64,000 bases of DNA from Amyloporia xantha. Taxonomy: Eukaryota > Basidiomycota > Agaricomycetes > Polyporales > Adustoporiaceae. Position 1 is the stretch's first letter, and each line of letters opens with the position of its first letter. The notes beneath the pieces were generated by a model, which saw only the letters and a program-made list of their open reading frames with translations, was not told the origin of the DNA and made no database searches. Location: positions 496,001 to 560,000 of the forward strand of contig JAYKKR010000006.1 of the NCBI GenBank assembly GCA_036971615.1, read 5' to 3'. Below, piece after piece: positions 48,489 through 55,817 of this stretch. Both the position numbers and the translations under genes were made by a program.

Positions 48489-49190
48489 TACAAATTTGAA
48501 ATACCTATGGATCTGAGTTCCTGCCACAGTTGTTGAAATCAATATTCACACCGATATTCTGCTGTGCGTTGGCACGGGTAGACTGCTAGTGTACTCATAA
48601 TGCATTAGTATGTGGCACCACTTAGCCGAGTATCAGCCTTATCCACTTGGTATGCCAAAGCTGTCTAAGGACGCCCGGAGGGGCCTGTCTACGCTGCAAC
48701 ATGCGTGTGGGTGGTTCACAATCTAGCGCTTGTATCACAAGTTTACCTCACAGTCTGCTCACGCTCAGTCATATAATCAATGCACCGCCGTATGTTCTGG
48801 AGATAGCGCGCTGGTTATCACAAAGTCACTTTGACTTGTTTGCAATGTCCACGGATATTATCTACTTCGAAAGCGTTCGGGGGATGACAACGTTTTGTCG
48901 ACAACCTGCGGCTAGGGTGAGTGAGATAGCGCTCGGCGCCTACCTCGCATCTGATATGTCTAAATTCGTATAGAGCATCATGGAATAGTTCTATATGTTC
49001 CGTTCCGATTGAAGACTTAGCGCTACATTGAGCTTCTTCATGTGCGGCCAGGGACTGTTGTATACGTGGTGAAGCTATTGTAACATCAAACGGACGCCAG
49101 ACGTGGTCGCGAACAGCTGCAACTAGTCTCCTGTGAGCAGAGTAGATACTTCCTTCAAACCTTCGCAGGCTCAGGATATCCGTATCTGAC
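48489..49190. other. Intergenic, nothing recognised
   Basis: Unsupported short frames only. Confidence 0.4.
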
Positions 49191-49228
49191 GTCTGCTTTC
49201 TATTGGGGGGGTCTTATCGGTAGGGTCC
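49191..49228 (+). repeat. Left TIR of the helicase-DUF6589 element
   Basis: Starts GTCTGCTTTC and ends CGGTAGGGTCC; pairs with 55,364-55,401 at 32 of 38 positions without gaps. It lies 163 bp upstream of the helicase start. Confidence 0.75.
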
Positions 49229-49390
49229 CATCGCCATCCATCTGCCGTACGGCATGTCACGATATTGTACAAACAAACCATAATTTCGCGTTCAATGAGA
49301 CGCGTCTGAGCGTGTCGGGTGAGCGTGTGCTCTCTGGCAAAACTTCGTTCGCTCGCTTCCCGGTGATGTATTTATTGCCTGGTATTTAAT

Positions 49391-52183
49391 ATGTCCTCTA
49401 TCTCGAGACCGTCTACATGGTCAGACCATCTACACTACGACTGGACCTCACAGGAAGGTCTCATAAGACTCAAGAGTATCATTCAGCCGGCACTACCTTA
49501 CGAGCTTCGTTATTTTCAACTCTACGACGCCGCGTGCATCTTAAGTGGACGCGATGTCATCTGCGTAAGCGCGACTGGTGATGGAAAATCTGCGCTGATA
49601 TATGTGCCAGCAATGGCCCGTCCCAGTATGATTACTGTAGTAGTCGAGCCAACCAATCTCCTCGAAAATGATATGGTACGTTATGGAATATAGAATCCGT
49701 ACCCATATGCCTCAATTGATCATATCAGGCATCCAACCTCGTCACAAAAGGGATCTCATCAATAGTCATCAATGCCGAGACACTGGTCACAGCCGCAAAC
49801 ACGGGGCGAGACTTATGGGAGGAGGCAAAGAACTGTGCTCACCGCATCATCACATGTGCCCCTGAGCGGCTGCAATCCGCGGAATTCAACGGGATGATAC
49901 AAAATACACAATTTCGCTCCCGCTGGGGCGTCTTCGTTGTGGATGAGGCGCACCTGACGGATCTTTGGGGAGCCGATTTCCGCCAGGCCTATGCAGATAT
50001 GTGGAGTATTCGATCACGCGCGCCTGAACATGTCGTCTTTGTGGCTCTATCAGCAAGTATAGAACCAGGGCGTCAGACTATGCAAGTCGTGAAATGTCTG
50101 GGCTTCCGTGCAGGGCGCTATCATATGGACCGCCGGGACTGTGAACGCCGGAATGTCAACTTCATTTTCCGTGAAATACAGCACCCATTCAGCGGCCATG
50201 CATTCCGAGATTTGGACTGGCTGGTACCCGAGAACCTAATGAAAGTGTCAGATCTCCCGAAAAGACTGGTCTTTTGCGAGACTATCGAACTCGGGCATCG
50301 GGTGGCATTATACTTGCGCGGGCTGCTTCCTCCTCATCTGGGAAGGATCGGGCATGTGGTCATTCGCCATATGCACTCAATGAGCTGTGTCGAGTGTAAA
50401 GCAGAAGGCTTTGCAGCTCTGGGAGAAACGGGGGAAGAGAGAACGACAGCTCTCTTCATCGCTACCGCTGTCCTCGAGCAGGGTGTTAATATCCCCGGGC
50501 TGCAGACTGTGGTCATGTTTCCCTGTCCCAGCAGTGCTGCTTCATTGATCCAAATGGCGGGACGCGCCGTGCGTGAAGGGAGCTCACAAGGTGAGGCAAT
50601 CGTGTACGTGAAGCCGGCCGACATTCGCACTGCCAAAAAACTTGTGGACTCGGACATTCACGATGCACGGCTCTTGGACACTCACATTGATGAGCGCGCC
50701 AGGGATAAAGATTGCCAGCCATCAGATAATCGAGGTTAGTCTATGTGTTCGGTCTCTTACTGAATCACAGCACTGACCGTGAACGCAACAATGTTGGCCG
50801 GTGTCCCGACATTGCAGATCCTGATCCAGAGCAAACTGTGGCGACTGGCTCAGAAGTTAATGTGGATGGGACTGCAATTCTCTCCCAGCACCCACCTCTC
50901 ATGGATTCGGAGGCGTGCGCGAGCGCCAGTGGATCCAACAGGGACGGCATGCAGCCTCCTCCCTGCTCCGAGGGGTTGGTAACACCCCCATCTCCACCTG
51001 CCAGTGAGGGCACAACCACCCTGGCTAAAACGAAGACGAAGGGAGTCACGACGAGTAAATCCTCCAAAACAACCGACAGAAAGCACGAGAAGGGTTTCCA
51101 ATCCCTCGATCTTATCATTGCTGCTCATGCGCGGCAGTTCTGCATTACACGCCAGATCAATATTATATACGGGAACCAGGGAGTGACACATGACTGCGGG
51201 CGGTGCAGTTCTTGCGTTTCCTATCCGTCTCCTTCACCACGAGAGGTCGTGGCGCCTGCAAACTCCAATTCATATACACTTGACAACCGCACTGCGGCCG
51301 GCCATGACGATGCCTCAGGTCCATTGCCGACTCACCTCAAGTTGTTAGTCAAGGATGCTGCACGAGTTGCCCAGGCTTTGTTGGCTGCTGCACGCAAAAT
51401 CCGTCAGACTCAACCTCGAAATGGGGATGCCCTCTTCTTGGGTGCCGCCTGCTTCCTCCCGGAAGGAATAATCAAGTCAATCACAGCTGACTTCTTGTTG
51501 GTGACTTCGAAACAGGTTCTCGAGTCCCGGGTCAAAGGTTGGCGCTATTGGGAGAAATGCGGAGACTCACTCTGGAGTGCCGTCGAGGCTATAAGCGCTT
51601 CCACGCGGACCATGCTAGAGAAGCGCCATGAAGACAAAAAGGCCAAGCGGCGAGTGGATGATCAAAAGCGCAGGGATAACAAGGTTCACGCCACGCTCGC
51701 AGCTGTCGGTCTGGGCAATATTTCTCGTGTTCGGCTTGTTTTACCGGAGCACAAAGAGAGCCAGCCCGAGCATTTCTCCAGTCCAATTCCTGACTTGGAG
51801 CCCCAGCTAGCAAGCGGCTCAATCCCAGTGATGTCTGCACCAGCTTCGGCATCTACGAGTGCCCACCCCACTCCTCGAGTCGTCCTTCGTGTGACGTCCG
51901 TCTCCGAGTCAATCGTGCATATCGCTGCGCCCTTGGTGAACCATAATGGCAAGCGTCCGGCTCAGACATCCCATGATGACTTAGAGACTCGAAAGAATCA
52001 TAAAGTTCAACGTCGGGTTGGGTATGAGGACAAGGTGAGTTAAATTACCAACCTGCAGTAAACGCTAATGATCGCCAACCATTGTAACAGCGATTCAAAG
52101 AAAATATCGACAGTGGTGCCATTGCCGGTGGCCAGCGGGGGACCAGACGGTCTCAGCGGCAGCGTAACCCTGTCATCCGTTAG
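49391..52183 (+). CDS. RecQ-like SF2 DNA helicase, 4 exons, intact
   Basis: Exons 49,391-49,675, 49,729-50,734, 50,818-52,034 and 52,091-52,183 give 866 aa. The acceptor at 50,817 is chosen because a nearer AG breaks the frame. Helicase motifs: Q-like region (ELRYFQLYDA), I (ATGDGKSAL), II (VVDEAHL), III (ALSASI), V (TAVLEQGVNIPG), VI (QMAGRAVREG). About 110 residues of low-complexity linker follow. Then comes QFCITRQINIIYGN...HDCGRCSSC, which looks like the RecQ zinc-binding module. The tail has a basic coiled region (KRHEDKKAKRRVDDQKRR). It should unwind DNA in the nucleus using ATP. It is convergent with the DUF6589 gene inside shared terminal inverted repeats, so its job may be processing of transposition intermediates rather than host repair. 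Confidence 0.85.
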
Positions 52184-52242
52184 GTCACTATGTGCTGGCC
52201 TGACTTGACCTGTTCTCGCAGACATGTTGTCTACATACACAG

Positions 52243-55192
52243 TCATTCATCCATGATCTCTGAGTCGTCCGAGTCGTCCGCATCATCAATCTCTGATTCC
52301 ATATCTGAATTGTCTGCCCCCACAACCAAGGTCCCGTCGACATGAACATTTGGCATTGGCCGTGAGTTCTGGCTTAAGAGGTTGTCGTCGATGTCGTCAA
52401 GACTGTCATCTTCATGAATCGCCCCTGCATCCCGCAGTGTTCTTGCAACAAAGTCATTGATTCGCTTCCCATCGGCCAGCCGCGCGTAGCCTGCCGTGAA
52501 ATCATCTTTGGCTACATGTGTGGAGGTACGCCCTGATTGAAACTTGTGCAATTCTTGCTCAGTGAAATTGCGAGCTAACTCCTTCATTGCGGCATTCTTG
52601 ACGGAGCGGTGATGCGTGCCTGATGTCGAGCCTACACGTACTGCAGCCTTCATGGAGGACGTCGCCAATAGAAATGCACGGATGTTGAGAGCGATGATCT
52701 CTTTGAAAAATTGGCCACCGAAAGACGCATCGCGTTTTTGAGACATCTTCTTCAATTGCTTGATGTTTTTCTCCTGCAAGAGGTCCATTGGGAACCAACA
52801 ACCGGGTATTCCAGACAGGTTGCATAACCAGTTGTTCAGCAGTGCCTTCTTGAGATCATCGGAATATTCATACTCAAATTGGCATGCCATCTCAAGTAGC
52901 TCGTTTGCATACTTGCTTCTCCCAGATCCCGTGAAGGTGAATGTCCAAACCTATAGTGAAAATCACATGAGTTCATTCACTGCGACGACTGGCCAATAAT
53001 CCTGATATCTTACAGCCATTACATTCATTGCACGCCCGATATCACCCTCCGCAATTGCACACTGGAACTCATAGTGCAGGACACTATCCCGCATGCGAAG
53101 AATTGTATTACCAAGTACTTGATCTCCTCTGAACGGCTTGATTGGTTCCACATCTTGCGGCACCTCAGAGACCACTGGCATAGCCTGTGATTCCGCTGGA
53201 CTGCCCTCAGCCGTTGGTGAAGTCCACAGTGATCCAGTCTTGAAGAAACCATCCACGGAGTCCGCCGCTGAGTCCACTGCACGCTCGTATGCTTCAGTGG
53301 ATAGGTAATGATCACGAATTTCATTTGCAAGCTTTAACAAATCTTCGAAAGCTATCTGGTGCTCGGTGAAGTATTCATCTAGGTCAGACACATTCAAATG
53401 GACCCTGGCTAACATGGTTAACCTCCATCGTTCAAGGGCATGCATGGCAAGAACATACCTCCAGCAGTCAAGAACCTCAGCTTTAAGTGTATCAAATACC
53501 AAGTGTTGCGCTGGATAATAATCAGGGCGCTTTTGATCTTTTACTTTCCGTCCAAGTAATACATTGGCCGCACGGAAGGAGGACAAGTCATCTGCCTCCG
53601 ACTTCCCCCAGTGTGTATTCAGGACACGCTCCAGGTCCGCCCAGCCCATATGCCACAGTTGGATTAGAGGCAGAACCCACCCATACTGTGAATAGCCATG
53701 CGGGCACGTTGCCATGAACTTCTTCAGAGTACGAAGCTTTTCTACAGTTGACTGATCACCTCCGACAATGACCAAAAGCCGGGCTACTTCTTCTTTTGAT
53801 AGACCAAGTTGGCGAATGAGCAGATCATCGAGGACCTTCGCATTCTCGGCAGTAACCCCCTCATTGAAGTCGGATGTCGCCAAAGGATGAAGTGTCGTCT
53901 TACGCCCTGCTCGCATACGGTGCATGGCCAATGATGTCTCGAACCGCAGTTTTATCAGGTCACGATGCCCCTGCAAACTCGGTACAGCCTCGGCCAGCAT
54001 GTTGAGGGCATGATGCGCCATGACAGCATTTAGCTTTGCCCAATCAACACGGTTGTAGAGAACATCCAGACTGAGAGCCTTGCGTCGCTGCTGCTCCTGA
54101 GCCTCTCGTAATATACTGATTTCGAATGCTTTCTCCACATCGCAGTCCTCGAGTTCAACGTATGTCGCAGCCGTCCCGTTGTGCATCCGATCCCTCTCAC
54201 CCAGGTCAGGATCCCAAGCCTGCATCCTGCGGTTGATATTGTCATAGATAACTTGAAATGCGCGCATTTTGGCCTTCTGCTGAACAGTCTTCTTCGCCGA
54301 CTCCGAGAGTGAACATAACAAGGATGACACTGTGGTGTATGACACAGATAGCCCAATGCGGCTGAGAACTGCATATATACCATATGAGGCTGTATGTGCG
54401 AAAAGCCACAGGCCGACAATCTTCTGAAACATCGTAAAATGCAGATTGCGCGCACTCATGAGCATGAGGCACGCCACGAGAGCTATCTGAAATTGAGCAC
54501 GAAATTAAATGAGGGCTCCAATTGTCCTGTGCAGGTAAACTCACGAGAAGTGGATCGCGGCGATTCTGGCCGATGCCAGAGGGTGGGGGCTTGGAGAAGT
54601 ACGTTTCATATGTTTGCGTTTGGAGAATGAGACGTTCCTTGACCGGCACGGCAGCAGCCACAACCAGACGTAGAATCGTAGGGCCTTTGGTTGCGAAAAG
54701 CGAAAGAACTCGTTGCATTGAGAACTCATGCACAAAGTCCCATGACGCCTCCTTGTCTCTCATATGGAATCCTCCGTCCTTGGAAGCCACCTCCGCCGCC
54801 TCCCTGTCAATAACCCCCTCGACTTTTGTTATAGCCCAATCCAATAGTAACCATTGAGCCATCATCTTCTCGTTGCGACGCGAGACGTCAGACGCGGGGC
54901 GGCCAGGCGTGGAGCGCACTGAGATAGGTGCACTGTATCGGCTGGTGTACATGAGCTCGACGATTTCGACGACGGTGACAGTTGTTCTACCACTCAGGAA
55001 CGCAGAAACCATTTGTGCATGGCGCTGCCCGTTTCCCTTCTCGACCTGTGTCTGCGGTACTGTGAAGAGAGCTTTCATGAACGCGCCGAGAGTGCCGTAG
55101 TCTCGATGGATGTCTTGTAGCCGGGCGTCCATGATAGCGTCTCGTTGAGCTCGCCATTTGACCTCTCCAGGAGGCAGTGTATTTTGAGGCAT
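52243..55192 (-). CDS. DUF6589-type protein, 3 exons, putative transposase
   Basis: Exons 55,192-54,545, 54,486-53,014 and 52,950-52,243 (942 aa) join in phase 0. The middle exon carries the features I associate with DUF6589: LLVIVGGDQSTVEKLRTLKK, then YGWVLPLIQLWHMGWADLERVLNTHWG, then LLGRKVKDQKRPDYYPAQHLV and a C-terminal LHYEFQCAIAEGDIGRAM. The third exon has FEYEYSDDLKKALLNNWL and an acidic tail (DDADDSDDSEIMDE). DUF6589 has no assigned function that I know of. The Asp in GGDQST at the end of a hydrophobic strand would suit an RNase-H-fold transposase, but I cannot place a full DDE set. Its position inside inverted repeats beside a helicase supports a mobile-element role. Confidence 0.72.
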
Positions 55193-55363
55193 TGCAGACA
55201 GAGGAAGTACATCCAGAAGTTGTGGCGGGCGATGCTAAAGAAGACAGACTGAACGCTACTGTACGTCCTACTGGAGCTCGATCGCAGCCTCTGATCGAAT
55301 AACGAACTCCGATCAAATTCCGACCAGCATCTCCCCTTTGGGTAGAAACTCCGCCTTAACTTA
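55193..55363. promoter_or_regulatory. Upstream region of the DUF6589 gene
   Basis: 171 bp between the DUF6589 ATG and the right TIR. It must contain the promoter; no TATA box is obvious. An imperfect GATCGCAGCCTCTGATCG inverted repeat lies at 55,279-55,296. Confidence 0.35.
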
Positions 55364-55401
55364 GGACCCTACCGTTAAGACCCCCGCGTCAGAAAGTAGA
55401 C
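55364..55401 (-). repeat. Right TIR of the helicase-DUF6589 element
   Basis: Starts GGACCCTACCGTTAAGACCC and ends GTAGAC; inverted relative to 49,191-49,228. Confidence 0.75.
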
Positions 55402-55817
55402 TAGCTGCAACAGGCAATCAGCGAATAATCCACGTCACTATTGCGTACCGGCCGTATCAACATCGGCAGCAGATGAACATCCTCAGCGCTGTGCATTTAC
55501 GTGAAGTATGGGTAAGTGTCCTCCTTTGGAATTTGAGCAACGTCCCTCCGTTGATAGCTCCATTCATCCTCCTCGGGGGTCACTCATGACTTTATCAGAG
55601 CAGATGCCGCCCGAACGTCGCGTGAAATATTCATATCCCATGATGTTCTTTTACCAGATTGCGGGGCTGGCTGCTTCTCATCTTCTATTGGCTCTATGTT
55701 TGCCACTCATAGTCCGCACGTTGATGAGACTATTAAAACAGCGAGCCGGTGACACCGGCTCTCTTCAGATAATCACTTTATTGATTGCATTTGATGCTTC
55801 CAGTTCTTGAAGGCGAC
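55402..55817. other. Intergenic, nothing recognised
   Basis: An open frame from 55,508 has no recognisable content. Confidence 0.35.

Follow-up and report, generated by a model that had tools for sequence, protein, structure and literature searches.

What is a locus in which a helicase gene and a gene for a DUF6589 protein stand alone between matched inverted repeats? Such a locus lies in a 64,000-nucleotide stretch of the Amyloporia xantha genome (contig JAYKKR010000006.1, positions 496,001 to 560,000; the window, in whose coordinates it is described), and an earlier, sequence-only reading had taken it for a possible transposon. The answer given here is that positions 49124–55403 are in all likelihood an intact, probably autonomous, AcademH-like fungal DNA transposon, in which the DUF6589 protein would be a Hermes-like DDE transposase and the helicase an accessory. 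That the locus is a transposon is borne out by ends that are well defined and flanked by target duplications, by sister elements inserted elsewhere, and by a deletion derivative. The analysed genome is a 46.8-Mb assembly of 60 contigs, and other loci are named by contig (C1, C3, C10 and so on).

Results

Ends of the element

The inverted 38-bp arms noted earlier, at 49191–49228 (+ strand) and 55364–55401 (− strand), do match at 32 of 38 positions without gaps when counted on the alignment. The match is beyond chance, because a 654-bp copy on C10 has both arms with 0 mismatches. As element ends, however, the arms held up only in part: they are real, but 49191 is not the left end. At the left, the copies on C10, on C49 and at two places on C3 are homologous out to 49123/49124, 67 bp outside 49191, and no farther; right-end homology with copies elsewhere continues beyond 55401. 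A boundary at 49191/55401 was rejected, since the direct repeat is absent there and the homology extends farther.

An 8-bp direct repeat, GCTGCAAC, identical on both sides, flanks positions 49124 and 55403 (at 49116–49123 and 55404–55411). This duplication, together with the homology limits of the C10, C3 and C49 copies, defines an element of 6,280 bp at 49124–55403, TAGTCTCC...GTAGACTA; accordingly, the left arm is subterminal and the right one ends 2 bases before the terminus. In a listing of the termini, the left terminal inverted repeat TAGTCTCC (49124–49131, + strand) matches the right one, TAGTCTAC (55396–55403, − strand, read inwards), at 7 of 8 positions. A ninth duplicated base is obtained in the window only when the element's final A is reckoned as target.

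The C10 copy consists of the two element ends joined, with identities of 98.5–98.8% at the right and 95.6–96.8% at the left, and carries GTGCCCGC (8 bp) on both flanks. Two more deleted copies, with a left end of this kind, lie on C3, where the flanking 8-mers agree by eye at 6 of 8 positions.

The two genes

The entire cargo of the element consists of the helicase and DUF6589 genes. The first, at 49391–52183 on the + strand (introns 49676–49728, 50735–50817 and 52035–52090), encodes a RecQ-like superfamily 2 (SF2) helicase of 866 amino acids, with Pfam matches to DEAD (6.6e-17) and Helicase_C (1.4e-9); its closest solved relatives are RecQ 4tmu (E 1.7e-23) and 1oyw (1.9e-22), then BLM. The second, at 52243–55192 on the − strand (introns 54487–54544 and 52951–53013), encodes a DUF6589 protein of 942 amino acids (Pfam PF20231, 2.3e-121), a putative DDE transposase. 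With intron borders picked by hand to preserve frame, both genes are spliceable and free of internal stops, and they converge with their stops 59 bp apart. Splicing and the Pfam search thus uphold the description of two intact multi-exon genes between the arms.

An RNase-H-fold transposase had also been proposed for the DUF6589 protein, and predicted structure, fold matches and conservation support this. The fold comparison used the predicted model of a relative 58% identical to the window protein, and the best match was the hAT transposase Hermes; absence of a family from the fold listing does not count against that family. Conservation and strand order give D298, D460 and E767 as candidate catalytic residues. 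On the model and this conservation, the protein looks like an RNase-H-fold DDE transposase. By sequence, its profile had two matches among solved structures (E 1.1), neither a transposase. At E ≤ 1, the Pfam matches of this protein were limited to DUF6589 and a single unrelated family below threshold, with no hAT family, and neither it nor the helicase matched a HUH Rep or PIF1 family.

Other helicase/DUF6589 loci in the genome

DUF6589 was found at at least six genome loci, as at least 14 matching pieces on C55, C58, C21, C14 and C1 (twice). A helicase relative adjoins it at all six loci found, so that the helicase is a regular partner of DUF6589 in this genome, as had been supposed. The sequence-only reading had further staked its case on other such pairs having inverted repeats: three of the five (C14, C21 and C58) have both repeats and duplications, at different sites, and the two on C1 have no inverted repeat in the stretches examined, an outcome that does not refute the element.

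The C14, C21 and C58 elements measure 7,043, 7,100 and 6,870 bp and start TAGACTCG or TAGGCTCG. Their inner inverted repeats match at 96/105 (by arithmetic from the score), 98/105 and 60/65 positions, respectively, and lie 59–111 bp inside outer tips of the form TAG[A/G]CTCG, which are flanked by perfect 9-bp duplications (GATCGATTC, GCGCGCCTG, CGTCCTCCC). The inner 65–105 bp repeats were rejected as the ends of these elements, as no duplication is found there and the TAG tips and 9-bp duplications lie farther out. The window family and this sister family both have two-part ends, a short tip on the outside and a longer inverted repeat farther in; the right inner repeat of the window family stands almost at the tip. 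Their genes are divergent in C14, C21 and C58 and convergent in the window element.

Perfect duplications were present in five of the seven insertions in which both ends were read. Excluded from this count were the two C1 loci (ends not found), C12 (single end only), C49 (left flank equal to that of C3:364k, and truncated by the contig start), C25 (ends ~16 kb apart), and two copies on C45 and those on C5 and C23 (all four within a repeat at least 9.5 kb long). Between C14 and C21, the transposase exons are 85% identical, with a ratio of nonsynonymous to synonymous substitution rates (dN/dS) of 0.11 over 359 codons, and the element ends are 98–99% identical. That the ends are far more alike than the exons suggests that the ends have recombined or are under strong constraint.

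Three further loci are of a different character. At C1:3663694–3674882 the two DUF6589 and helicase pairs are mirrored, one DUF6589 match having nine stops, and the arrangement looks like a decayed inverted duplication. At C25:42892–58952 about 16 kb separate the two ends of the C14/C21/C58 family; inner pieces are scattered, no DUF6589 match is listed, and the locus may be a decayed copy into which other sequences have inserted. The repeat of at least 9.5 kb (C45 twice, C5, C23) holds a fragment of a helicase/DUF6589-type element; its copies are 99.6–99.85% identical in the pairs compared (4 of 6), and the repeat itself may be a larger mobile element of recent date that took up the fragment.

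The 67-bp left module

The terminal 67 bp at the left (49124–49190, + strand) are also dispersed alone. Among 56 candidates there were 40 scored genome matches. Thirty loci were read, of which four repeat another locus; the remaining 26 comprise three ends of larger copies and 23 solo copies. With offsets of up to 3 bases permitted, the flanking 8-mers of the solo copies match at 7–8 positions in 10 of the 23, versus 0.5% of shuffled pairs; the other 13 fall below this, four of them matching at 6. Because the flanking 8-mers match in these 10, the module seems to move alone, with 8-bp duplications as in the window family, and so appears to be a tiny mobile element by itself. Its right end differs from the full-length element's right tip. 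The idea that solo units are intron-like gene insertions was unsupported, open frames at the 23 sites having a median of 78 codons versus 109 at controls.

Relatives in other species

At least 45 relatives of the DUF6589 protein were listed (26–62% identity), and those named are from Agaricomycetes except one from Entomortierella. Close helicase relatives come from nine named species among the matches listed, eight of which also appear among the DUF6589 relatives; each list holds one member per 90% cluster. In three of these eight species the two proteins lie on contigs of equal size (Mycena galericulata, 894,606; M. citricolor, 57,159; Athelia sp., 325,940, with gene numbers 19613 or 19597, and 19595), and in five on contigs of unequal size. 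The equal sizes hint at linkage of helicase and DUF6589 genes without proving it. An XPG nuclease is expected for AcademX; none was found among 16 proteins listed as distant DUF6589 relatives, all annotated with PF20231 only.

Discussion

Insertion with 8–9 bp target duplications and the mobility of an internally deleted copy can be read directly from the sequences. In the mechanism that we propose, the DUF6589 transposase would recognise both the short TAGNCT tips and the inverted repeats farther in, excise the element and join it to target DNA cut with a stagger of 8 or 9 bp. Less certainly, the RecQ-like helicase may unwind or process intermediates of transposition, either at the element's ends or at the gap in donor or target DNA; it would then be a transposition accessory and not a host gene captured by chance.

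Several observations weigh against an AcademH-like transposon with a DUF6589 transposase. A search of the element's own genome revealed no empty site, and the two C1 pairs show no inverted repeat beyond 10–15 bp chance matches in the stretches examined. Further helicase relatives, on C18 (two), C12 and C13, have no listed DUF6589 match. Selection was measured on the C14/C21 pair alone, dS being saturated in the others. In the fold comparison, Foldseek gave nothing at E ≤ 0.001 (best 3.5e-3), TM-scores to Hermes were 0.13–0.21 on the query, and the N-terminal part of the model was hardly tested; the catalytic triad was read off conservation and strand order. The window family (the window element and the C10 copy) duplicates 8 bp, not the 9–10 bp of AcademH, and AcademH was compared through reported descriptions.

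The element could instead represent a separate superfamily outside Academ, a DDE transposon related to Hermes and hAT that gained its RecQ helicase independently of AcademH. The 8-bp duplications of the window family, the TAG tips and the best fold match to Hermes would fit this. We nevertheless regard it as unlikely, given that no hAT Pfam family is found at E ≤ 1, and that the helicase partner, the fungal host and the 9-bp duplications of the sister family agree with AcademH as reported in the accessible text of the two papers (PMC10045372, PMC10799480). A bolder version, that DUF6589 elements form a superfamily of their own, defined by two-part ends (TAGNCT tip and inner repeat) and a standing helicase partner, with the 67-bp module serving their transposase as a minimal substrate and spreading by itself, among the smallest miniature inverted-repeat transposable elements, seems rather improbable to us.

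The presence of a helicase relative beside DUF6589 at all six loci found would also be expected if the helicase were the main engine, in a Helitron-like or helicase-driven replication, and DUF6589 the accessory. This is very improbable, as the transposase-like fold sits in DUF6589, neither protein has a HUH Rep or PIF1 match, and 8–9 bp duplications with terminal inverted repeats are, to our knowledge, no Helitron traits. It is scarcely credible that the two are host genes paired at a fixed locus and flanked by inverted repeats that arose by chance. Only the openness of both genes might speak for this reading; it is already refuted by the distinct duplications at different insertion sites, and a deletion derivative retains both ends.

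An AcademH-like transposon remains the preferred explanation. It gives a likely function, that of a DDE transposase, to DUF6589 (PF20231), a family still labelled as of unknown function; a literature search, with most subscription papers outside its scope, found no relevant paper on DUF6589, PF20231 or IPR046496. With an intact element and a short derivative at hand, the role of the helicase in transposition is open to a direct test with and without the helicase gene.

Comparison with known transposons

Among hAT elements, Hermes offers the nearest fold, but the DUF6589 protein has no hAT Pfam match at E ≤ 1; as to the 8-bp duplication of hAT, the window family duplicates 8 bp and the sister family 9 bp. 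We know of no helicase partner as a hAT trait. Helitrons have a HUH Rep and PIF1-type helicase and make no target duplication; the two window proteins match neither family at E ≤ 1, and duplications of 8–9 bp are present here. The insertion target of Kolobok is TTAA, and none of the five perfect duplications (GCTGCAAC, GTGCCCGC, GATCGATTC, GCGCGCCTG, CGTCCTCCC) is TTAA. KolobokH resembles the window element in being a DNA transposon of fungi that carries a RecQ helicase, which in the accessible text is placed downstream of the transposase domain (PMC9587614), whereas the window helicase is a separate convergent gene, and helicase and DUF6589 lie on opposite strands in C14, C21 and C58. Neither KolobokH nor Helitron fits the window element.

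AcademH, of the Academ superfamily, was reportedly described by Kojima in 2020 (Mobile DNA 11:15). A literature search for helicase-containing transposons of Agaricomycetes found none. The earlier view that a helicase in such a layout was not known from DNA transposons is not supported: as far as their accessible text goes, published reports describe helicases in AcademH (PMC10045372, PMC10799480) and KolobokH (PMC9587614). AcademH is there a helicase-encoding lineage of animals and fungi (PMC10045372, PMC10799480), low in copy number in Basidiomycota, Ascomycota and Mucoromycota (PMC10799480). Its target duplications are 9 or 10 bp, versus 3 or 4 bp in AcademX, a difference that the author links to the helicase and the nuclease (PMC10045372). 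The window element is likewise a fungal DNA transposon with a helicase (DEAD and Helicase_C matches, RecQ relatives), and its transposase would share the RNase-H (DDE) fold, by model and conservation. Because the 9 bp of the sister family fit and the 8 bp of the window family nearly do, the element probably files, from the traits in these descriptions, as AcademH, and provides an intact two-gene example of this known kind of helicase-carrying transposon, with exact ends and a short derivative.
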